NCBI GenBank assembly: GCA_029779995.1
Contig: JAKOZM010000202.1
Location: 1 to 8,540 of the forward strand
Source of the DNA: Actinomycetes bacterium
GTDB lineage: Bacteria > Actinomycetota > Actinomycetes > S36-B12 > UBA10799
Reading direction: 5' to 3'
DNA: 8,540 nt
The position numbers and the translations under genes were made by a program. This document shows, piece by piece, positions 1 through 8,540 of the stretch (positions are counted from its first letter, which is position 1; each line of letters starts with the position of its first letter). The notes beneath the pieces are model-generated. The model did no database searches. It was not told the origin of the DNA and saw only the letters and a list, made by a program, of their open reading frames with translations.

Positions 1-673
1 GCACTTCTTCAACGAGACCCGGTTGCTGCGCGACGCCCTCGGCCAGCTCGTCTCCGGTGCCCTGGCCGGCCTGTTCGACGACCACACCAACATCGCCGTC
101 GACTGGAACGCCCCCATCCAGTCGCTGTCGCTGTCCCGGCTCAACCCCCTCGGAGACGAGGCGATCGGCATCGCCCTGGTCTGCCTGAACAGCTGGGGCC
201 GGGGCATGCGCGAGATCGCCGCACCAGGGGACATGCGCATCGTCGTGCGCGACGAGATGTGGAAGGCGATGCGCCTCGGGGTCGAAGCCGTCAAAAGCCT
301 CGACGAGGACCTGCGCCTGTCCCGCGGCGTCGCCGGCCGCGGCGGGGACATCCAATGGGCCAACGCGCACAAGCCCTCCGACATGCTCACCGTCGGAGAC
401 CAAGGCTCCCAAGCCGCCAACATCGCCCGAGACCTCATGCACCTGGCCGACATCAAGATCCTGCACGGCCAGAAGCCCGCAGTCGCCGGCGAACTCGACG
501 CCATGCTCGGCCTGGGGCGCCAAGCCACCGAGGTGATGACCGACTGGGCGATGCAACGCAAAGGCCGCGCCCTCTGGCTCGTCGGTGAACGCAGCTTCAA
601 GGTGGAGACCCGACTGCACCCCGTCGAAGAACACCTCACCTGGACCAACGAAGCCCTCGAGGGCGCCATCTAG
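1..673 (+). CDS. VirB4-like conjugative transfer ATPase, C-terminal part (5' truncated)
   Basis: The reading frame is open from base 2, so the gene begins upstream of the window; about 223 C-terminal residues and the TAG stop (671-673) are present. The part seen fits the C-terminal half of the ATPase domain of VirB4/TraC-type type IV secretion ATPases, which energise pilus assembly and DNA transfer at the inner face of the membrane. A Walker B-like strand MRIVVRDEMW has its D-E pair at bases 251-256. Before it comes SLSLSRLNPLGDEAIGIAL. After it come WANAHKPSDML (the histidine/arginine-type motif that follows Walker B in this family) and a late segment RALWLVGERSFKVETRL. The Walker A motif must lie upstream. 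The next gene, a secreted cell-wall hydrolase, starts 8 bases after the stop, so the two are probably cotranscribed. Family placement is from remembered motifs; another HerA/FtsK-like conjugation ATPase is the alternative. Confidence 0.8.
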   Translation, partial: HFFNETRLLRDALGQLVSGALAGLFDDHTNIAVDWNAPIQSLSLSRLNPLGDEAIGIALVCLNSWGRGMREIAAPGDMRIVVRDEMWKAMRLGVEAVKSLDEDLRLSRGVAGRGGDIQWANAHKPSDMLTVGDQGSQAANIARDLMHLADIKILHGQKPAVAGELDAMLGLGRQATEVMTDWAMQRKGRALWLVGERSFKVETRLHPVEEHLTWTNEALEGAI

Positions 674-681
674 GCACGCCC

Positions 682-2220
682 GTGAAGAAGCTCACCGCCG
701 CAGCCACCGCCTTCCTGGCGATGCTCATCGCCCTACCGCTGATGACAGCGGCCTTCGTCGTCTCCAGCGCCCCAGCGGTCGCCCAAGCGGTGCAGTGCAC
801 CACCGCGGGACTGCCTCCCACCGGAGCGTGGCGGCCCCCGTTCCAGCAGGCCTACGCAGTCAGCCCGCGAGGGTTCGGGTTGGAGTTCCACCCGATCTAC
901 CACCAGTGGCGCCAACACACCGGGCAGGACATGTCCTCCCTGCCCGACCCCGGGCCCGTGGTCGCTGCCGCCCGCGGAACGATCACCTCGGCCGGCCCAG
1001 CGGGCGGATACGGCAACCTCGTCGTCCTCGACCACGGGGCAGGAGTCAGCACCTACTACGCCCACCTCGCCTCGATCAGCGCCGACATCACGCCCGGGGC
1101 GCCCGTGTGGATGGGACAACAGCTCGGGGTCGAAGGCACGACCGGCACGAGCACCGGAAACCACCTGCACTTCGAGGTCCGCCAAGACGGCACCCCGATC
1201 GACCCCATCCCGTTCATGCTCGCCCACGGCGCCCCCCTCAACGGCCAAGCGGTCGCCCCATCGAGCCCACCCGGCACCGGGCCAAGCGACCCTGGCGGCC
1301 AGCAAGGCGGCATCGGCTTCACACTGCCCCCACCTGGCACCCCACGCCTGAACTCACTGTCCAACCCGCCCCAGCCCATCCCCGCCGACATCAAGACCCT
1401 CTACCTAGCCGCCGCCGACCGATACCACCTGCCCTGGACCCTGCTGGCCGGGATCGGCATGGAAGAGACCGCACACGGACGCACCGCCGCCACCAGCTCA
1501 GCCGGCGCCCGGGGCCTCATGCAGTTCATGCCCGCGACCTGGGCGATGTACGGCGTCGACGGGGACGGGGACGGGGACGGCCGCGCCGACATCACCAACG
1601 ACGCCGACTCGGCAATGAGCGCAGCGAACTACCTGACCGCCTCGGGAGTCACCGCCGGCCCCGCCGGCGTGCGGCGCGCGATCTTCGCCTACAACCACGC
1701 CGACTGGTACGTCAACGACGTCCTCTACTACGCCGCCGCCTACGGCGGCGGCACCGTGCCCGGCGACCCCAGCGACTGCGGACCCGGCGGGATCGGCAAC
1801 CCCAACCTGCCCCCCATCGACAACGCCGCGATCGCCGCCATGCTCACCTGGGCCCAGAGCCACATCGGCGACCCCTACGTCTTCGGCGCCAACGGACCGG
1901 ACGCCTGGGACTGCTCCAGCTTCACCCAGGCCGCCTACGCCCAGATCGGGACCAGCATCCCCCGCACGGCCTCCGCCCAACGCAACTGGCTCGCCGCCGG
2001 CAACGGGTTCCGCGTCCCCGCAGGCCAGGAACGACCAGGGGACCTGCTGTTCGTCGACAGCTACCTCGGCCCTAACCAGATCGGCCACGTCATGATCGTC
2101 TTCGACCCCGCCACGCACCTGACCGTCGAGGCCGGCGGAGCCAAGGTCGGCAACTACGACTACAGCCAATGGGCCGACCACCACATCTATGAGTTCTGGC
2201 GTGTCGGAGCCACCCACTAA
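682..2220 (+). CDS. Secreted three-domain peptidoglycan hydrolase (M23 + SLT + NlpC/P60) of a conjugation system
   Basis: A 512-residue protein with a GTG start. A signal peptide occupies residues 1-36: MKK, then a hydrophobic core, with a likely cut after AVAQA. Domain 1 (about 45-180) is an M23/LytM-type metallo-endopeptidase with H79-x3-D83, YAH127 and H161-L-H163, so the zinc and catalytic set is complete. A Pro/Gly-rich linker (about 185-232) leads to domain 2 (about 233-350), a lytic transglycosylase with probable catalytic E262 in MEETAHG and the motif GARGLMQFMPATW. It carries an Asp/Gly loop (293-300) resembling a calcium site. Domain 3 (about 378-510) is NlpC/P60, with C411 in WDCSSF and H469 in IGHVMIV. 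Together these could cut both glycan and peptide bonds. It follows a VirB4-like ATPase gene, so it probably opens the wall for the transfer channel, as VirB1/CwlT-type enzymes do. Exported or surface location is inferred from the signal peptide. Confidence 0.9.
   Translation: MKKLTAAATAFLAMLIALPLMTAAFVVSSAPAVAQAVQCTTAGLPPTGAWRPPFQQAYAVSPRGFGLEFHPIYHQWRQHTGQDMSSLPDPGPVVAAARGTITSAGPAGGYGNLVVLDHGAGVSTYYAHLASISADITPGAPVWMGQQLGVEGTTGTSTGNHLHFEVRQDGTPIDPIPFMLAHGAPLNGQAVAPSSPPGTGPSDPGGQQGGIGFTLPPPGTPRLNSLSNPPQPIPADIKTLYLAAADRYHLPWTLLAGIGMEETAHGRTAATSSAGARGLMQFMPATWAMYGVDGDGDGDGRADITNDADSAMSAANYLTASGVTAGPAGVRRAIFAYNHADWYVNDVLYYAAAYGGGTVPGDPSDCGPGGIGNPNLPPIDNAAIAAMLTWAQSHIGDPYVFGANGPDAWDCSSFTQAAYAQIGTSIPRTASAQRNWLAAGNGFRVPAGQERPGDLLFVDSYLGPNQIGHVMIVFDPATHLTVEAGGAKVGNYDYSQWADHHIYEFWRVGATH
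1558..1581 (+). repeat. Tandem hexanucleotide repeat (GACGGG x3 + GACGGC) inside the hydrolase gene
   Basis: Four consecutive six-base units, three identical (GACGGG) and the last GACGGC, encode four Asp-Gly pairs (residues 293-300). The unit length keeps the reading frame, so gain or loss of units would change the length of the Asp/Gly loop without breaking the protein. Confidence 0.9.
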
Positions 2221-2483: not shown

Positions 2484-2489
2484 GGGAGG
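2484..2489 (+). promoter_or_regulatory. Strong ribosome binding site (GGGAGG) for the leader ORF at 2495
   Basis: GGGAGG lies 5 bases before ATG at 2495, an ideal Shine-Dalgarno position. That ATG is not in the frame of the sigma-like gene that follows, which bears on the choice of its start and on possible translational coupling. Confidence 0.6.
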
Positions 2490-2494
2490 CGACC

Positions 2495-2548
2495 ATGGAT
2501 CACCCACCACCACCGGTTGAAAGCATCGGGCAACGCCGTGCATCCTGA
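2495..2548 (+). CDS. 17-residue leader ORF overlapping the start of the sigma-like gene
   Basis: ATG at 2495, backed by GGGAGG, opens a 17-codon frame (MDHPPPPVESIGQRRAS) ending at TGA 2546-2548. It overlaps the first codons of the sigma-like gene in another frame. Its stop lies 5 bases after the candidate GTG start at 2538, a layout typical of termination-reinitiation coupling. Alternatively the ATG is the true sigma start and one base has been gained or lost between 2497 and about 2538. The peptide itself shows no recognisable function. Confidence 0.4.
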   Translation: MDHPPPPVESIGQRRAS

Positions 2549-3062
2549 CATTGCAGCCCTATACCTGCGGCACCGCGTGGTCCTTCTCGCGGTGGCCAGC
2601 AGTGTCCTCCGTGGCACCCCGCAGCGCGACCAGGTCGAGGACGTCGTCATGGAGGTCATGACCTCGCTCGGCGAAAGGCCACCCACAAGCCCCGTGCACA
2701 ACTGGGAAGCCTTCTTGGTGCGCGCCACCCGGAACAAGGCCATCGACCTCCTCCGATCGGCGGCGGCCCGACACCAGGGCGGCTCCATCGAGGACGACCA
2801 GCACCCCAAAACCGACCAGTTCATCCCCGACGACGTCGCCGAACGGGTCGACAACCAGCGCGCCGGCGCGGAGCTCTGGGACAAACTCTGCCTGCTCGAC
2901 CCACGGGACCGGCGCATCCTGTGGGAGTACAAGGCGCTCGGTCGTCTCCGCGGGGCGGTTGCTCGCGAGTTCGGGATCAGTCCCGCCCGAGTCAGTCAGA
3001 TATCCACCGCCAGCCTGAAGATCTTGCGTGAGGCGCTCCTGAAAGAGGGACACCAGCCATGA
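2517..3062 (+). CDS. Sigma-70-family (ECF-like) RNA polymerase sigma factor
   Basis: Up to 181 residues. Region 2 is about 11-86: a helical segment ALYLRHRVVLLAVA, then an acidic EDVVMEVM stretch, then NWEAFLVRATRNKAIDLLRS, which matches the W-x-FL-x3-ARN-x-AIDxLR pattern of ECF region 2. An acidic linker (91-117) leads to region 4 (about 118-173): LLDPRDRRILWEY, then the helix-turn-helix GAVAREFGISPARVSQISTA that would read a -35 element. It would direct RNA polymerase to an unknown promoter set, perhaps transfer genes. The start is uncertain: TTG 2517 has no Shine-Dalgarno, GTG 2538 has a weak one, and the only strong site serves the out-of-frame ATG at 2495. The stop overlaps the next gene in ATGA, so the two are translationally coupled. 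Confidence 0.75.
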   Translation: MKASGNAVHPDIAALYLRHRVVLLAVASSVLRGTPQRDQVEDVVMEVMTSLGERPPTSPVHNWEAFLVRATRNKAIDLLRSAAARHQGGSIEDDQHPKTDQFIPDDVAERVDNQRAGAELWDKLCLLDPRDRRILWEYKALGRLRGAVAREFGISPARVSQISTASLKILREALLKEGHQP

Positions 3063-3706
3063 CCGCGAACCGAGACGACCGCATCGCCGACCTCGTCACC
3101 GCCCGCGCGCTCGACCCCGGCCTGTCGCGGCCTGACTGGGTCAGCGACTCCGAATGGGAGGAGATCTCCCAGCTGTCCCTGATCGAGCGCGAACTGCGCC
3201 ACGCGGCCCAGGCTCCTCCTCTGGAGCGCGACCGGGTAGCCGCCATGCTCGGGCTGGTCGCGGATCCGGCTCTCCAACTCAACCCGGCAGGCCTGAAACG
3301 ACACCGGCAGCGGGCACGCCTGACCCCGAGCCAGGTCGCAGCCCTTCTCGCAGCACGGGGCTGGGACATCACGCAGCGCGACATCTTCCGATGGGAGAAC
3401 CAGAGCAGCGCCGACGTTCCGCCGGCGGTCATCGAAGCCCTGGCCCAGGTGATCCGAGCCGCCACCGAGGACCTCACATACCGACGCGACACCACTGCCT
3501 CGCTCCTGGACGCGGGAAACCCCGTCGTCCAAGGTCTCGCGTCCCGTCTGGCCGCAGCCCTGGGAATCGGCGGAGACATGGCTCTGGCCCGGCTGCGGAC
3601 CGCCGCCGCGGGCAGCTTCCATCGCGGCGTGAAGCCCGAGAACGATCAATTGCTCGCCACTTTGGACGGGTACGTACGGGCCATGGAGCGGCGCCGTGGA
3701 TCTTGA
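3059..3706 (+). CDS. XRE-type helix-turn-helix regulator
   Basis: A 215-residue protein starting at ATG 3059, with AGAGGGA about 8 bases upstream. Residues about 79-130 (LKRHRQRARLTPSQVAALLA, then ITQRDIFRWENQ) form a Cro/C1-like helix-turn-helix in which RWEN is the family's typical end. The 78-residue N-terminal part is acidic and helical (SEWEEISQLSLIERELRHA), and the C-terminal part (145-215) is alanine-rich and helical; I recognise neither. The start overlaps the sigma-like gene by 4 bases, and the end overlaps the metallopeptidase gene by 11. In many mobile elements an XRE repressor sits beside an ImmA-type protease that inactivates it, so this is the probable protease target. Because it also follows a sigma factor it might inhibit that factor instead, or act as an antitoxin-like protein. 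The DNA-binding domain call is solid; the role is inferred. Confidence 0.75.
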   Translation: MTANRDDRIADLVTARALDPGLSRPDWVSDSEWEEISQLSLIERELRHAAQAPPLERDRVAAMLGLVADPALQLNPAGLKRHRQRARLTPSQVAALLAARGWDITQRDIFRWENQSSADVPPAVIEALAQVIRAATEDLTYRRDTTASLLDAGNPVVQGLASRLAAALGIGGDMALARLRTAAAGSFHRGVKPENDQLLATLDGYVRAMERRRGS

Positions 3707-4703
3707 CCTTGCCGCGGCTGCCGCCCTGGCGGCTCTGGACGGCGCCACGCGGCGATGGTTCGTGAACGACCCCCTCGCCGCCCTCGCCGGTCTGGGGCTC
3801 GCCGTTGAGGCCGTACCCCACTTGGACGAGGCACGCGATGGGGGCGGCGCCTGCGATGGTGCGTCGTACGTGCATGACGAGGTCATCTTGTATCGGCCCA
3901 GCCCATACTCGCGGCGTCAGAACTTCACCCTCGGCCACGAACTTGGTCACCACTTGGTCGACGCCAACGCCTCGATCGTCGACTGGCTCGCCGACCAACC
4001 CGATCCGATGCAGCAGCTGGAAACCATCTGCGACCGCGTTGCCCAAGCACTGCTGCTCCCCGACGCCGTGGTCACCGCACACGTCGGCCGACCGGTCCGA
4101 GCCCGGTCGGTACTGGACCTCTACGAGCACACTCAGGCCAGCCGGCCCGCCTGTGCCATCGCCGTCGCTCAGCGCCTGCCTGGGCTCGGTGCCGTCGTCA
4201 TCTTTGAGCCTGGCACCAACAAACTGGGGTTCACCAGCGTCCACCCCGACCCGGACCGCGGATGGCCTGAAGTCTTCCCCTGGAAGGATCACCCGCTCCC
4301 CGCCGGCCACCCCCTTAAGACGCTGACCCCCGGCGGCGAGCTCACCCAGCGAACCTTCTGGGAGACACCGCGGGGGCGACGAGAACAGTTCTATGTCGAC
4401 GCCATCGTCGACGACCATCGAGTCATCGCGGTTTTCTCCGACGCCGACCTGTGGGACTGCGAAAAGCTCCACATCGAACCTCCTCGTGCCTACGCCGCCC
4501 GGCCACTTCGGGACGTCACTTGCTGTGGGGTGACCCGGCAAGTCCGCGGGTACCCCTGTCCCACCTGCGACGGCGGGTACTGCCCTGCCTGCGGAAACTG
4601 TCGCTGTCAGAAGCGCGCTGAACGGGAACAGCAGTGCCAGGGCTGCTACCAGGTGTTCTTGCCCCACCTCCTCGTCAATCGACGCTGCGAGGAGTGCCGC
4701 TAA
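3696..4703 (+). CDS. ImmA/IrrE-family metallopeptidase with cysteine-rich zinc-ribbon-like tail
   Basis: A 335-residue protein starting at GTG 3696, with GGAG (3685-3688) well spaced, and overlapping the regulator gene. The peptidase domain (about 15-165) has HELGHH (H81, E82 and H85 form HExxH), then ETICDRVAQALLLP, where E109 is the likely third zinc ligand of the ImmA/IrrE family (COG2856). Family members cleave XRE repressors in ICEs and phages, or act in stress responses. A middle domain (about 166-265) is not recognised. The tail (276-335) has 12 cysteines in 60 residues, including CPTC, CPAC, CQGC and CEEC, enough for two zinc-ribbon-like sites. The adjacent helix-turn-helix protein is the obvious candidate substrate. 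The peptidase call is firm; substrate and trigger are inferred. Confidence 0.85.
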   Translation: MDLDLAAAAALAALDGATRRWFVNDPLAALAGLGLAVEAVPHLDEARDGGGACDGASYVHDEVILYRPSPYSRRQNFTLGHELGHHLVDANASIVDWLADQPDPMQQLETICDRVAQALLLPDAVVTAHVGRPVRARSVLDLYEHTQASRPACAIAVAQRLPGLGAVVIFEPGTNKLGFTSVHPDPDRGWPEVFPWKDHPLPAGHPLKTLTPGGELTQRTFWETPRGRREQFYVDAIVDDHRVIAVFSDADLWDCEKLHIEPPRAYAARPLRDVTCCGVTRQVRGYPCPTCDGGYCPACGNCRCQKRAEREQQCQGCYQVFLPHLLVNRRCEECR

Positions 4704-4769
4704 CCCTCCGCGGCCTTGTCTCGACTACGCAGTGACAGGACACCCCATGAACGGGTCGGCTGTCGGGAC

Positions 4770-4777
4770 GGAGGTGA
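4770..4777 (+). promoter_or_regulatory. Perfect Shine-Dalgarno GGAGGTGA fixing the start at ATG 4783
   Basis: GGAGGTGA is fully complementary to the 16S rRNA 3' end and lies 5 bases before ATG 4783. It selects this start over the in-frame GTG 4732 and ATG 4747, which have no such site. Confidence 0.8.
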
Positions 4778-4782
4778 ACACG

Positions 4783-4938
4783 ATGGCCAAGAACACCGGC
4801 CACGGATACCGGCACGGAGCGGTCCGCAATCGCAGCGAGTTCAAGGTGGGCAACACCTGGTTCAAGCGCGACGGCGACACCGGCCGCATCCTCAACGGAA
4901 GCCCCAACCAGCACAAGGGCGTCCGGAACGAGAAGTAG
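4783..4938 (+). CDS. Small basic conserved-type protein, 51 residues, function unknown
   Basis: The 51-residue product begins MAKNTGHGYRHGAVRNRSEF and ends KGVRNEK. The pattern RHGAVRNRSEF, then W-x-KRD-x-DTGRI, then KGVRNEK resembles a widespread family of small (50-60 residue) basic uncharacterised proteins, as I remember it. It has no signal peptide or membrane segment and is rich in Arg, Lys, Gly and Asn. The perfect Shine-Dalgarno predicts efficient translation. It begins 79 bases after the metallopeptidase stop and is followed at once by a strong hairpin, so it is either the last gene of the regulatory operon or an independent small unit. No function should be assigned. Confidence 0.7.
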   Translation: MAKNTGHGYRHGAVRNRSEFKVGNTWFKRDGDTGRILNGSPNQHKGVRNEK

Positions 4939-4941
4939 TAC

Positions 4942-4978
4942 CGGCGGCGGGTGCCTGCTTGACAGGCACCCGCCGCTG
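4942..4978 (+). terminator. Strong GC-rich hairpin terminator
   Basis: GCGGCGGGTGCCTG (4944-4957) pairs perfectly with CAGGCACCCGCCGC (4963-4976) around a CTTGA loop. One G-T and one C-G pair extend the stem to 16 pairs. It sits just after the small protein's stop and before the methyltransferase. There is no T-tract, as is often seen in actinomycetes. It probably insulates the restriction-modification genes from the upstream operon. Confidence 0.8.
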
Positions 4979-5055: not shown

Positions 5056-6117
5056 ATGCCGACCAAGGCCGCCACGCGCATCGAGCCCGTTCGCGCGGCC
5101 CACGAGACGGCCGCCCACCATCCCAGAGTCCGTTGGATGGGAAGTAAGTACCGCCTCCTCCCTCACCTGGCCGACACCTTCGCCGAGCTGGGCGGCGCAA
5201 CAGCGCTGGACGCCTTCTCCGGCTCCGGCGTCGTGTCCTACCTGCTGAAGAAGCAAGGGTTCCAGGTCCACAGCAACGACTACCTCCAGTTCCCCGCGAC
5301 GATCGCAGCCGCCACCATCGTCAACCAGGCCACCACCCTGAACCAGGGCGACATCGACCGCATCCTGGGCCCAGCCGCCGACGACCGTACCTTCATCCAA
5401 GACACCTTCGCCGGCGTCTTCTTCGACCAGGACGACTTGCGCTTCATGGACTCGGCATGGAGCCACATCGCCGCCATGCGAGGCCACAAGAGATCCATCG
5501 CCATCAGTGCCCTCTGCCTCGCCGCCGCCCGAAAGCAGCCACGCGGCGTCTTCACCATCAGCGGCGACCTCACCCACTACAACGACGGACGCCGGGACCT
5601 GCGGATACCGCTGCGGCAGCACTTTGTCGAGCGGGCAGCCGAGTACAACGCGAGCGTCTTCCAAGGACCCGCCTGCAAGGCCACGGCGGTTGAAGTGTCC
5701 GAGCTCGAGCACCGCCGCTACGACATCGTCTACCTGGATCCGCCCTACGCGCCCCCCCGGGACGACAACGACTACACCAAGCGTTTCCACTTCCTCGAGG
5801 GCCTGAGCCGATACTGGGCCGGGGACACGATCATGGCCGACACCAAGACCAAGAAACTCCCCAAGCGGGTCACCAAGTTCTCGACTAAGCGCACCATCGA
5901 GGAAGGCTTCCGCGACCTGTTCAAGCGGTTCCACGACTCCACGATCGTGCTCTCCTACTCGTCCAACGCCCTCCCCGACCTGGAGTCCCTGACCCGACTC
6001 CTCGCCGAGTTCAAGGACGACGTCCAGGTTCGGTCCATCGAACACACCTACCACTACGGAACTCACGCCGCCGCCACTCGCCGCAGCGTCGACGAATACA
6101 TCTTCGTGGCGCGTTGA
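5056..6117 (+). CDS. D12-class (Dam-like) N6-adenine DNA methyltransferase of a type II R-M system
   Basis: A 353-residue protein. Motif X is RVRWMGSKYRLL (about 25-35). Motif I, the S-adenosylmethionine loop, is LDAFSGSGVVSYLL (51-64). The catalytic motif IV is YLDPPY (226-231). The X-I-IV order is that of alpha-class amino-methyltransferases (D12 family), which transfer a methyl group to N6 of adenine at a specific site. The 150 or so residues between motifs I and IV would hold the target recognition region; the sequence recognised cannot be read from this. It ends 3 bases before the downstream gene, whose features suit a restriction endonuclease, so the pair is a classic type II arrangement with the modification gene first. 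The ATG lacks a ribosome binding site, so translation may be leaderless. An orphan methyltransferase is possible if the partner is inactive. Confidence 0.9.
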   Translation: MPTKAATRIEPVRAAHETAAHHPRVRWMGSKYRLLPHLADTFAELGGATALDAFSGSGVVSYLLKKQGFQVHSNDYLQFPATIAAATIVNQATTLNQGDIDRILGPAADDRTFIQDTFAGVFFDQDDLRFMDSAWSHIAAMRGHKRSIAISALCLAAARKQPRGVFTISGDLTHYNDGRRDLRIPLRQHFVERAAEYNASVFQGPACKATAVEVSELEHRRYDIVYLDPPYAPPRDDNDYTKRFHFLEGLSRYWAGDTIMADTKTKKLPKRVTKFSTKRTIEEGFRDLFKRFHDSTIVLSYSSNALPDLESLTRLLAEFKDDVQVRSIEHTYHYGTHAAATRRSVDEYIFVAR

Positions 6118-6120
6118 GCA

Positions 6121-6963
6121 ATGATTGACCCACCCGAGTTGATCGCGTACACGCAGCGGCTCCGGCGCCTCACCGCCCACGCCGACCCGACCCGAGGCAA
6201 CCCGCACGCCGAGGCCATCCGTACCAGCGCCAACGCGCTGGAAGCCCTATCAAGCATCACCGCCGCCACACTGACCGACTGGGTGACCACGCACCCCGAT
6301 GGGGTCTACACCCTCGGCCTGGCCGTCGGACTCAGCCAAGAGAAGCTGAAGAACCTCCTCCGGGCCGAGTTCGGCACCACCTCCTGGACGGTCGTGGCCC
6401 GAACCGGGCCCGATCGACTGGTCGCCTGGATGGACGACGAGTTCGGCCTCATTCCGGCCATCCAGGCTCAGCGCGGCCGGTCATACTCACTTGGCGACGT
6501 GCTCGCCGCCCGGGGAACATCGCGCCAAACCGCCACCGCAGCCGGGGAGACCGGGAGGCTCATCGAGGACCAAGTGGAGGCCATCGTCAAAGACCTCGAC
6601 CTGCCCTACCAGATGCGGGGGCGCTTCGTCGGCGTCAACGGGCGAACCGGGCCGGCCGATCTCGCCATCCCCAACTTCACTGACTGCGTGATCGCCGTCG
6701 GCTGCAAGGGGTTCGACTCCACCGGATCAAAACTCACCGCGGCCGTCAGCGAGATCACCGAAATGGTCGACGTACACCGGCCACACCAGTACCTCTTGGC
6801 AGTTGTCGACGGCATCGGCTGGCTCGGCAGGATGGGCGACTTCCGACGGATGTGGGACCACTACGAGCAGCGACGCATCGAAGGGCTCTACACGCTGGAA
6901 GACCTCGACCGGTTCCGAAGCGACTTGGAAGCCGCTGCTCGACGAGCCCGCTTGCTCCACTGA
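6121..6963 (+). CDS. Probable type II restriction endonuclease, PD-(D/E)xK-like, with atypical catalytic motif
   Basis: A 280-residue protein starting 3 bases after the methyltransferase stop, without a clear ribosome binding site, so translational coupling is likely. The C-terminal half has the layout of a PD-(D/E)xK nuclease: helix RLIEDQVEAIVKDL (146-159, with E149 a possible metal ligand), strand GPADLAIP (D180), strand CVIAVGCKGFDSTGSK (189-204), then QYLLAVVDGIGWLGRMGDFRRMW (223-245). K196 fits the catalytic lysine. The acidic residue normally two places before it is glycine (G194, codon GGC at 6700-6702), so the enzyme may be weakened, dead or use another acid. The N-terminal 110 residues look helical and may serve DNA recognition. 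The role rests largely on pairing with the methyltransferase; resemblance to the DpnII-like group is only an impression. Confidence 0.7.
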   Translation: MIDPPELIAYTQRLRRLTAHADPTRGNPHAEAIRTSANALEALSSITAATLTDWVTTHPDGVYTLGLAVGLSQEKLKNLLRAEFGTTSWTVVARTGPDRLVAWMDDEFGLIPAIQAQRGRSYSLGDVLAARGTSRQTATAAGETGRLIEDQVEAIVKDLDLPYQMRGRFVGVNGRTGPADLAIPNFTDCVIAVGCKGFDSTGSKLTAAVSEITEMVDVHRPHQYLLAVVDGIGWLGRMGDFRRMWDHYEQRRIEGLYTLEDLDRFRSDLEAAARRARLLH

Positions 6964-7213: not shown

Positions 7214-7672
7214 ATGCAACGCTCACGACGCACCAACCCCTACCCGTTCACCTGGGAGATCCCGCTTGCGTTGGTCGTCGCGGTGCTCCTGCTGCTGCTG
7301 CTGGGTGTGCAGCTCGGTCGCTCAGCGGCGAACCTGCTTGCCGGCAACGGGTGGGTCTTCGTCGACCGGGCCGCACTGTTCACCAGCCTGCCGGGAATCA
7401 TCAGCGGGCACGCCGACGCGGGCCTGGGCCCGCTGAGCCACCATCCCGCCTCCTCCGTCATGTGGGGCTCGATCGGCACCGCCGAGGCGATCATCCTGGT
7501 CGGCTGTGCTGCCGGGCTGAAGTGGGGGCTCGGCCGGTGGGGACCCGGGCGGTTGCATGGCATGGCCACTCGCGCGGAGGCCGAGGCACTGCTGGGCAGG
7601 ACCCGCCTGCGCAAGCACGCCAAGGTGATTCGGCCAGACTTGTACGGAGCCAGCACGGAGAGCAGCCGATGA
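7214..7672 (+). CDS. Two-helix membrane protein, likely the separate N-terminal part of the coupling protein
   Basis: A 152-residue protein with a basic start (MQRSRR), a first membrane helix at about 15-35 (very leucine/valine-rich) and a second at about 87-105 (GTAEAIILVGCAAGLKWGL). A roughly 50-residue loop lies between them. The tail is basic and cytosolic by the positive-inside rule: HGMATRAEAEALLGRTRLRKHAKVIRPDL. Two helices plus such a tail match what normally precedes the ATPase domain in VirD4/TraG coupling proteins. The next gene starts directly with the ATPase region and overlaps this stop by ATGA. The product therefore probably anchors the coupling ATPase in the membrane. It has no catalytic motif. 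It could instead be an independent transfer protein of unknown role. Confidence 0.7.
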   Translation: MQRSRRTNPYPFTWEIPLALVVAVLLLLLLGVQLGRSAANLLAGNGWVFVDRAALFTSLPGIISGHADAGLGPLSHHPASSVMWGSIGTAEAIILVGCAAGLKWGLGRWGPGRLHGMATRAEAEALLGRTRLRKHAKVIRPDLYGASTESSR

Positions 7673-8540
7673 GACGCCTGCGACCCGTAGAGGTCGGGTG
7701 GCGCCTGGGTGACGCCCGCGAGCCGCGTGGTGGTCAGCTGTGGGTGCCGTGGGATCGGACGGCCGGAGTGATCGGGCCGCAAGGGTCGGGTAAGACGCTG
7801 GACCTGCTCGCGCCTGCCCTGATCGACGCGCCGGGCGCGGCGTTGACGACCCTGACGAAGGTCGACGACCTGCTGCTGACCTTCACCGCGCGGTCCACTC
7901 GGCAACGACCGTGCATCGTCCTCGATCCGTTCGGCCTGGTGCCCGGACTGCCCGAGGTGGTGTGGGACCCCATCCAGGGCTGCGTCGACCCCCTGGTCGC
8001 CGAGCGACGCGCCAAGGCCTTCACTGCCGGCACCGTCAAAGGTGCTGTCGCCGGCGGGCACGCCGACGACGCGGCGCACTTCTACGCGGCCGAGGCCGCC
8101 AAGGTGCTGCAGGGCTACTTCCACGCCGCCGCGCTGACCGGGCGCAGCCTTGAGCACGTCCTGGCGTGGGTGGCCAAACCGTTGGCCGCCACCGATCCCA
8201 CCGAGATCCTGCGCGAGCACCCCCATGCCGCAACCTTCTGGGACGGACTTCTCTATGGGGCGTTGCACGGGGACGACCGGACCGCCGGTAACACCATCAC
8301 CACGGTCCAACAGGCCATGTCCCTGTTCTTCCAAGAGGACATCCGCCGCCGCTGCGTCCCCGGCCCCCATCGCGCCGCCACCGACATCGCGCACGTCATC
8401 GCCCAAGGCGGCACCATCTACCTGCTCGGCCGCGAAGACCCCTACGCCTCCGCTTCCCCGCTGATGACGGCCTTCGCCGAGCACGTCCTGGACACCGCCC
8501 TGCAGGCCGCGAACACCTCGCCGTGGGGGCGGCTGTGCCC
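7669..8540 (+). CDS. VirD4/TraG-like type IV coupling protein ATPase (3' truncated)
   Basis: The ATG at 7669 overlaps the preceding stop (ATGA) and has GGAG about 8 bases upstream. The frame is open to the window end, giving 290 residues. Near the N terminus come VEVGWRLGDAREP, then Walker A GPQGSGKT (36-43). Then come TTLTKVDDLLLTF and CIVLDPFGLVPGLPEVVWDP, both typical of the actinobacterial TraG/VirD4 group. Residues further on (GDDRTAGNTITTVQQAMSLFF and GGTIYLLGREDP) fit the all-alpha and central parts of this domain. Walker B should lie beyond the window. The protein would dock the relaxase-DNA complex and drive DNA into the secretion channel. Full-length family members carry two membrane helices before Walker A; none is present here, and the gene just upstream seems to supply them. 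Confidence 0.88.
   Translation, partial: MRRLRPVEVGWRLGDAREPRGGQLWVPWDRTAGVIGPQGSGKTLDLLAPALIDAPGAALTTLTKVDDLLLTFTARSTRQRPCIVLDPFGLVPGLPEVVWDPIQGCVDPLVAERRAKAFTAGTVKGAVAGGHADDAAHFYAAEAAKVLQGYFHAAALTGRSLEHVLAWVAKPLAATDPTEILREHPHAATFWDGLLYGALHGDDRTAGNTITTVQQAMSLFFQEDIRRRCVPGPHRAATDIAHVIAQGGTIYLLGREDPYASASPLMTAFAEHVLDTALQAANTSPWGRLC

Follow-up and report, generated by a model that had tools for sequence, protein, structure and literature searches.

The stretch of DNA analyzed here, hereafter the window, is the 8,540-nucleotide contig JAKOZM010000202.1 of an Actinomycetes bacterium (assembly GCA_029779995.1). It carries, head to tail on the forward strand, a sigma-70-family gene, a gene with the helix-turn-helix (HTH) domain HTH_31, and a gene for an M78/ImmA-type peptidase, which together form the core of a larger cassette. 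The sigma factor, of the extracytoplasmic function (ECF) type and 174 amino acids long, is encoded at 2538..3062, the 215-amino-acid HTH protein at 3059..3706, and the peptidase at 3696..4703, with overlaps of 4 nt (3059-3062) between the first two genes and of 11 nt (3696-3706) between the last two. A first-pass annotation made from the sequence alone had given the same overlaps and had numbered H81 and E82 of the peptidase correctly, its HELGH motif being residues 81-85 (3936-3950). The sigma start that it had placed at 2495 did not hold, since the ATG there is not in the sigma frame and opens a separate 17-codon reading frame. The trio that it had proposed as the unit stands, but it had overlooked the promoter-like sites, a gene for a 51-amino-acid protein, a hairpin, and the downstream genes of relatives; the cassette is thus larger than the trio.

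The sigma protein of the window matches TIGR02937 (E-value 1.1e-13) and Sigma70_r2 (1.2e-5), its match to the Pfam region 4 family (0.0074) lying under the Pfam cut-off, and the best PDB match of the family profile is the ECF factor SigL (6dv9, 5.7e-19). The protein consists of regions 2 and 4 only and falls within the roughly 160-200 amino acids typical of ECF factors, which places it in that group. Two candidate start codons lie in its frame, TTG 2517 and GTG 2538, of which the alignment of relatives favors the latter. Upstream, a Shine-Dalgarno sequence (GGGAGG, 2484..2489, forward strand) leads the 17-codon upstream open reading frame (uORF; 2495..2548, forward strand, stop codon 2546-2548), which overlaps the sigma start by 11 nt. 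Among 35 loci for which we assigned the sigma start, a Shine-Dalgarno-led uORF overlaps that start by 1-20 nt in 16, as against a mean of 1.6 and a maximum of 6 in 500 shuffles of the leaders, uncorrected for relatedness; the overlap is 4 nt in nine of the 16, and a looser count gave 19 of 38. This arrangement suggests translational coupling or attenuation. At the other end of the sigma gene, the HTH gene overlaps it by 4 nt in 28 of 42 loci.

The third gene encodes an ImmA/IrrE/CapP-type metallopeptidase with a cysteine-rich C-terminal part. It matches the M78 family of Pfam (3.7e-6) and capP of PADLOC (1.6e-13), and its family profile finds in the PDB an IrrE orthologue (8slm, 4e-13), IrrE (3dte, 3.9e-11), and CapP (7t5t, 0.017). 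The residues H81, E82, and H85 are invariant in an alignment of 27 sequences, as expected of the HExxH motif of IrrE and CapP, and the cysteine-rich part is kept across the same alignment. No relative of this ImmA was found among 50,697 phage records at E<=1e-5, and the viral contigs gave five weak M78 matches, none of them from the window's ImmA family.

The HTH protein comprises an N-terminal helical part (residues 1-70), an XRE-type HTH (about 75-142), and a C-terminal helical part (145-214). Its HTH_31 match (9.6e-5) is under Pfam's own cut-off, a PDB sequence search with the HTH profile returned no meaningful match, and a Foldseek search with a structural model of the protein returned none at E<=0.001. 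In a structure comparison of the model, the HTH part superposes on the N-terminal domain of CapH, and it is classed here as an XRE/CapH-like HTH; it is similar to the DNA-binding domains of CapH, ImmR, DdrO, and many other XRE proteins, and C proteins are also among its structural neighbors. DdrO aligns with residues 75-210 of the model at a root-mean-square deviation of 10.3. In the family an N-terminal helical part precedes the HTH, whereas the solved CapH domain starts at the HTH; a second structural look covered mainly residues 71-143 of the model, so that residues 1-70 were barely covered. Two further observations bear on the relation of the HTH protein to sigma. A metagenomic protein, P0123, joins the two as a natural fusion, and the distant HTH homologue of locus L039, alone of its kind, has a sub-threshold match (0.027) to zf-HC2, a fold that serves in anti-sigma factors.

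The trio is real and its gene order is conserved. We collected 44 loci, made up of the window, three plasmid loci recovered through DNA similarity in the ImmA region, and 40 loci found through alignment of ImmA, a procedure based on ImmA alone and blind to sigma and HTH. Window-like sigma and HTH reading frames lie immediately upstream of ImmA in 42 of the 44. The two exceptions, in which diverged genes occupy the sigma and HTH places, are L039 (Chloroflexi) and L040 (Thermoleophilaceae). L039 (7569-9974) has a 329-amino-acid protein with sigma region 4 (6.6e-7) and a 446-amino-acid HTH protein, ahead of a set resembling ubiquitin, E2, and E1, and L040 has a protein of the sigma cluster and a 217-amino-acid protein at these positions. 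A separate set of 394 genomes, drawn evenly from the class, yielded nine ImmA matches at E<=1e-20, comprising six full members, one fragment, and two distant relatives. All six full-length loci, two of which were already among the earlier loci, have sigma and HTH, and the HTH profile at E<=1e-10 recognizes exactly these six and nothing elsewhere. The three families thus occur together in fixed order in both collections, and the lack of co-occurrence that the first-pass annotation had named as telling against its proposal did not arise.

Some related loci depart from this pattern. L099 (G200) is a decayed copy in which the C-terminal part of ImmA, P2 (the second of the promoter-like sites described below), and the 51-amino-acid gene were detected and sigma and HTH were not. 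Distant relatives of ImmA occur in L090-L092, L100, and L101. In L090-L092 a protein of about 320-340 amino acids with no clear family is followed by an HTH protein whose N-terminal part differs, by ImmA, and then by other genes, including a nucleotidyltransferase in L091 and DUF3892-ThiF-DUF6527 in L092; the stretch TTACGTCGTC behind ImmA is common to L091 and L092. No dual promoter was found in L090-L092 by the test applied.

The cassette usually carries two copies of a promoter-like site with the consensus CTAAC-N17-CGACTAC, one (P1) before sigma and the other (P2) after ImmA and before the 51-amino-acid gene or the first cargo gene, cargo being the genes behind the cassette. Both are on the forward strand in the window. 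P1 (2424..2452), which precedes the uORF and sigma, consists of CTAAC 2424-2428, N17, and CGACTGC 2446-2452 and has one mismatch to the consensus. P2 (4700..4728) consists of CTAAC 4700-4704, which holds the ImmA stop codon, N17, and CGACTAC 4722-4728, and is exact; it precedes the 51-amino-acid gene. Across the 44 loci (733 kb) the exact pattern occurs 50 times; a form with N16 occurs once, and the other spacings from 10 to 24 are absent. It is found neither in 20 first-order Markov simulations nor in 18 control loci. In 17 whole host genomes there are 28 exact sites, each identical to the P1 or P2 of some locus, as compared to four for a reversed control pattern. When extended by the conserved GTGAG, the site occurs exactly six times in the 394 genomes, five times at cassettes (in four genomes) and once elsewhere (G205), and the reversed control does not occur. 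P1 and P2 are both present with at most one mismatch in four of the six full loci of this independent sample.

The shape of the sites agrees with that of ECF promoters, which have AAC at -35 and CGT at -10 (PMC3426412); the -10 element is mostly CGAC here and CGTC in some loci. A spacer of 16 or 17 is described for SigE promoters (PMC6767563). At the level of sequence, the position of P1, CTAAC-N17-CG(A/T)CTAC, before sigma also has the form expected of an autoregulated ECF gene. Within a locus the two sites match one another with a mean of 1.51 mismatches, as compared to 2.88 +- 0.14 when permuted, and none of 5000 permutations, which were uncorrected for relatedness, was as low. This comparison covered 35 of the 44 loci, leaving aside L006, L010, L015, L026, L036, and L037, which are near-duplicate or broken, and loci lacking a scorable P1 and P2. 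Covarying variants include CTAAAG in L030 and L031, CTTACA in L035 and L036, TTAACA with N16 in L038, and CGTCTAC in L023. P2 also follows its genes: in L016 and L018 the 51-amino-acid gene and the CBASS genes (cyclic-oligonucleotide-based antiphage signaling system) are divergent from sigma and P2 lies on their strand, and in nine loci that have no 51-amino-acid gene (L004, L011, L019, L023, L030, L031, L033, L034, and L041) P2 directly serves as the leader site of the first cargo gene by position, in diverged form in L033 and L041. Extra bases are conserved around the -10 element and start of P2 (CtgccTC...gTGAGaGc), and P1 is partly without them. From these patterns we infer that P1 and P2 are recognized by the cassette's own sigma factor.

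The gene behind P2 in the window (4783..4938, forward strand) encodes a 51-amino-acid protein (MAKNTG...KGVRNEK) that matches the PADLOC candidate PDC-S38 (8.8e-13) and has a homologue in 31 of the 44 loci. Its conservation is very strong, with the pattern AKNTG.GHR.GAV...RSEFK...TWFKRD..TGRI.NGS..QHKGVRNEK. The leader between P2 and this gene (4729-4782) opens with a conserved TGAGAG, which in several loci could base-pair with nucleotides upstream of the ribosome site; among 11 single folds, only that of L017 was clearly beyond shuffles and the energies were mostly no better, so that no conserved RNA stem was found in this leader. Behind the gene lies a GC-rich, terminator- or attenuator-like hairpin (4943..4976, forward strand; -36.3 kcal/mol for a 45-nt stretch), which probably marks the end of the cassette. 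It is absent behind the 51-amino-acid gene in L001, L006, L007, L012, and L016. The idea that ubiquitin-type loci lack the hairpin was rejected, being wrong for L024 and L032 once 110 nt were scanned rather than just the distance to the next called gene. Two small proteins recur in this region. One of about 90 amino acids follows the 51-amino-acid gene, with or without CBASS behind it, in L002, L005, L009, L010, L013-L015, and L020, and its L009 copy has weak similarity to Cas2 (PF09827, 0.0064). The other, of 77 amino acids, is first behind P2 in L004 (11139-11369) and behind the 51-amino-acid gene in L022 (4469-4699), with 81% identity between the two, and is possibly a further cargo family.

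Cargo was assigned by protein clustering and family searches of representatives, and the cargo labels are our own. Little or nothing lies past ImmA in L037, L040, and L043. Of the 41 loci with useful sequence there, 15 carry ThiF/E1 ubiquitin-like systems (bacterial ubiquitination-like, Bub), including Multi_ubiq with DUF6791-ThiF and DUF6527, eight carry CBASS, and one carries a bacterial ISG15-like (Bil) system. Thus 24 of the 41 cassettes stand beside an immune operon, as CapH and CapP do. The CBASS matches are to patatin (3.3e-112), CD-NTase (1e-170), and E1-E2 (1.7e-293), together with HNH-SAVED and with Cap15 accompanied by a cyclase (7.5e-95), and the Bil cargo is identified by BilD (3.5e-115). 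We compared both sides of the cassette with PADLOC at E<=1e-10, using 103 downstream proteins from 35 loci and 90 other-side proteins from 34 loci, with the window and proteins of more than 1100 amino acids set aside. The cargo side gave 123 families, of which the 25 listed are CBASS cyclases and SAVED or endonuclease effectors, and the other side gave 25 families, mostly restriction genes and candidates. The surroundings are generally defense-rich, yet CBASS is on the P2 side.

In the window, the possible cargo is a D12-class DNA adenine methyltransferase (5056..6117, forward strand; MethyltransfD12 3.8e-15, PADLOC MTase_II 2e-78), which lies beyond the hairpin, so that its control by P2 is uncertain. 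It is followed by a 280-amino-acid protein (6121..6963, forward strand) that is a possible restriction enzyme by its position and a GCKGF...TGSK-like stretch seen by eye; family searches gave it no convincing match. Neither protein has a cluster-mate among the genes called for L001-L043. Further out, the flanks of the window (1-2220 and 7214-8540) resemble a conjugative element, with an M23/SLT/NlpC wall-lytic protein at 682-2220 and a coupling-protein-like frame after 7669 that has a GPQGSGKT loop by eye, and genes of L014 fall into the same clusters as the frames 23-673 and 7669-8538.

The sequences also indicate that the cassette is swapped between cargo as one piece. In a phylogeny built on the three proteins of 39 loci, in which seven rows of unknown cargo were ignored, cargo changes at least 13 times, or 11 times in broad classes; the tree has SH-aLRT support only, and 11 of its 36 inner branches are drawn open. 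Sister cassettes can have unlike cargo, as in L035 (Bub) versus L036 (CBASS) and L042 (Bub) versus L025 and L026 (DUF3892). At E<=1e-10 the only block common to L035 and L036 is 85.6% identical over 2,691 bp and runs from before P1 to just past the hairpin, and the stretch common to L042 and L025 is 81.7% identical over 2,561 bp.

Taken together, these data make it probable that the cassette, which occurs in soil-type bacteria, is an exchangeable switch for immune operons, composed of an ECF sigma factor, a CapH/DdrO/ImmR-type HTH protein, an IrrE/CapP-type protease, and two promoters of its own. Its gene order, family assignments, two matching specific sites, and exchange of cargo are established by sequence. 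The operating steps that we infer are recognition of the sites by sigma, inhibition by the HTH protein, cleavage of the latter, and the cue. At rest, sigma or its promoters would be kept silent by the HTH protein. PprI/IrrE cleaves DdrO, and CapP cleaves CapH, both with stimulation by single-stranded DNA (described for the former in PMC10904395 and for the latter in PMC13373217), and by analogy with these pairs ImmA is expected to cleave the HTH protein. The protease would thus be prompted to cut the HTH protein by DNA damage or phage, with single-stranded DNA the probable signal, as it is for PprI/IrrE and CapP. Freed sigma would then act at P1 to amplify its own operon, a feedback, and at P2 to express the 51-amino-acid protein and the immune genes behind it, namely CBASS, Bub, Bil, or, in the window, perhaps the restriction-modification pair. 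Since the cassette pairs its sigma factor with two matching promoter-like sites, relief of inhibition would bring self-amplifying dedicated transcription. We lean slightly toward the broader proposition that one cassette, by releasing an ECF sigma factor from an HTH/anti-sigma protein through a protease, serves CBASS, Bub, Bil, and unrecognized systems across actinobacteria in an all-or-none manner through this feedback. A three-part circuit had already been proposed in the first-pass annotation; it is the model of greatest economy, and the matching promoter-like sites before sigma and before the next unit, together with the sigma-HTH fusion, speak for it.

Several observations weigh against the proposed switch. 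With a good site defined as a score of at most 1.5 (mismatches, plus 0.5 for N16), good P1 sites occur in 39 of 43 loci scored and good P2 sites in 38 of 44, that is, not in all; L037 and L043 end inside ImmA. With one mismatch and spacings of 12-20 allowed, there are further sites scattered in the loci, of which two (L016 2573 and L021 12780) have N17. In the independent sample, L095 has P2 with one mismatch and P1 with two, and L098 has no site within two mismatches. The permutation and shuffle tests took no account of relatedness. The cargo of 17 of the 41 loci, the window included, is not a recognized CBASS, Bub, or Bil system and consists of a Cas2-like protein alone, DUF3892, an OLD-like ATPase, an HNH protein, a methyltransferase, or unknown genes. 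Defense genes, mainly of restriction types, are found on the opposite side of the cassette as well, and defense islands therefore account for some of the link. In 26 of 31 loci, including the window, the 51-amino-acid gene is followed by a hairpin of -24 kcal/mol or stronger that precedes the cargo, which implies that P2 may mainly serve the 51-amino-acid gene in these loci; the cargo may then be expressed by read-through or from another promoter. As for the HTH protein, the 25 of 45 Pfam families listed for 38 of its members at E<=5 include no anti-sigma domain, the fusion P0123 is a lone metagenomic record, and AlphaFold2 gave this fusion a pTM (predicted template modeling score) of 0.44 with no confident sigma-HTH arrangement.

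The account that competes most directly would have the HTH protein repress P1 and P2 from the DNA, as CapH does at its promoter, without ever touching sigma; sigma would be a plain activator, so that the two accounts differ only in the HTH step. We regard it as a serious possibility that falls somewhat short of probable. The likeness of the HTH part to the DNA-binding domains of CapH, ImmR, and DdrO agrees with it, as does the lack of an anti-sigma domain among the families listed, and the extra conserved bases at P2 that P1 partly lacks could be an operator. The natural fusion, the N-terminal helical part that sets the protein apart from the solved CapH domain, and the sub-threshold zf-HC2 match in the L039 homologue argue the other way. 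The fusion and the extra N-terminal part favor an HTH protein that holds sigma itself, and the extra P2 bases favor one that covers the promoters. The other alternatives concern the purpose of the cassette. The methyltransferase behind it in the window and the C proteins among the structural neighbors of the HTH part would fit a C-protein-like control unit specific to the neighboring restriction-modification system, an explanation made improbable by the lack of cluster-mates of the methyltransferase and the 280-amino-acid protein in L001-L043 and by the hairpin between P2 and their genes. A maintenance or transfer switch of an integrative and conjugative element (ICE), like ImmR/ImmA of ICEBs1, had been suggested in the first-pass annotation and would accord with the conjugation-type genes around the window and with the similarity of the HTH part to ImmR. 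It too is unlikely: just two sites at no more than one mismatch occur in the window, neither ahead of a transfer gene, immune genes (CBASS, Bub-like, and Bil) follow the cassette in many species, and PLSDB lists the three close plasmid copies as one conjugative and two non-mobilizable. Finally, P1 and P2 flank sigma-HTH-ImmA in most loci and the cassette appears to be exchanged as a block, as might be expected of direct repeats that arose when a mobile cassette integrated. This is hardly credible, because the 17-bp spacers differ and each site, read in the sense direction, has a start codon a short way behind it, and att-like direct repeats were rejected on the geometry of L016 and L018, where the sites are inverted and stand back to back between sigma and the 51-amino-acid gene.

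How self-harming immune systems are kept silent and then switched on is an open question. The answers so far are mainly repressors of the immune promoter (CapW, CapH, and CapS), and one branch of CRISPR releases a sigma factor, CalpS. If the proposed switch is correct, a transferable sigma controller common to unrelated immune systems would join both ideas and add feedback. It would also furnish a search tag, in that a gene behind CTAAC-N17-CGACTAC beside such a cassette is a candidate immune effector; candidates include the 51-amino-acid protein and unrecognized cargo such as that of L003, L004, L007, L021, and L022. A search of the open-licence PMC literature found no sigma-HTH-ImmA controller of exchangeable immune operons, with terms that also missed CalpS.

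Several described systems resemble the cassette in part. In the Deinococcus PprI(IrrE)-DdrO pair, the likeness lies in the peptidase, whose profile matches IrrE structures as given above; DdrO, as described in PMC10904395, represses damage-response genes through an operator motif of its own, whereas in the present case exact sites occur only at the cassette, which also includes a sigma factor. ICEBs1 ImmR/ImmA is likewise a repressor-protease pair with a similar HTH part, but the cassette adds sigma and immune cargo, and its promoter-like sites give no sign of control over transfer genes in the window. ECF41 operons, as described in PMC3426412, share sigma regions 2 and 4, an AAC-type -35 element, apparent autoregulation, and a local target; the partner in the cassette is instead an XRE-type HTH protein with a protease, and the targets are immune operons.

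Others are described controllers of immunity. In type III CRISPR, the protease CalpL cuts the anti-sigma factor CalpT, which frees the sigma factor CalpS (PMC11229360), and protease release of an immune sigma factor is, by that account, already known. Cleavage of an inhibitor to free a dedicated sigma factor in an antiviral response is also what is proposed for the cassette. CalpL, as described there, is a cA4-activated SAVED-Lon protease tied to CRISPR, whereas the cassette has an M78 peptidase, an XRE-type HTH partner, exchangeable cargo, and a matching promoter. CapW/BrxR and CapK+CapS are further described controllers of immune operons (PMC13373217). Like the cassette, CapK+CapS is exchangeable and lies ahead of the varied immune operons that it controls, mostly Bub in its case; it pairs a kinase with a STAS-wHTH repressor that resembles anti-sigma partner-switching proteins, and the text of PMC13373217 available to us names no sigma factor for it. 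CapH and CapP are described as controllers of CBASS and other immune operons (PMC13373217, PMC10693628, PMC10904395), and CapW or CapH+CapP is reported on 219 of 544 Bub operons (PMC13373217). As in this pair, the HTH gene of the cassette is followed by an IrrE-like metallopeptidase gene, ahead of CBASS and Bub operons. Unlike the two-gene CapH+CapP, the cassette is headed by an ECF sigma gene in 42 of 44 loci and has an N-terminal helical extension on its HTH protein, a cysteine-rich C-terminus on its peptidase, and two ECF-type promoter-like sites. The cassette is therefore best read as a CapH/CapP-type controller of immune operons with an ECF sigma factor of its own.

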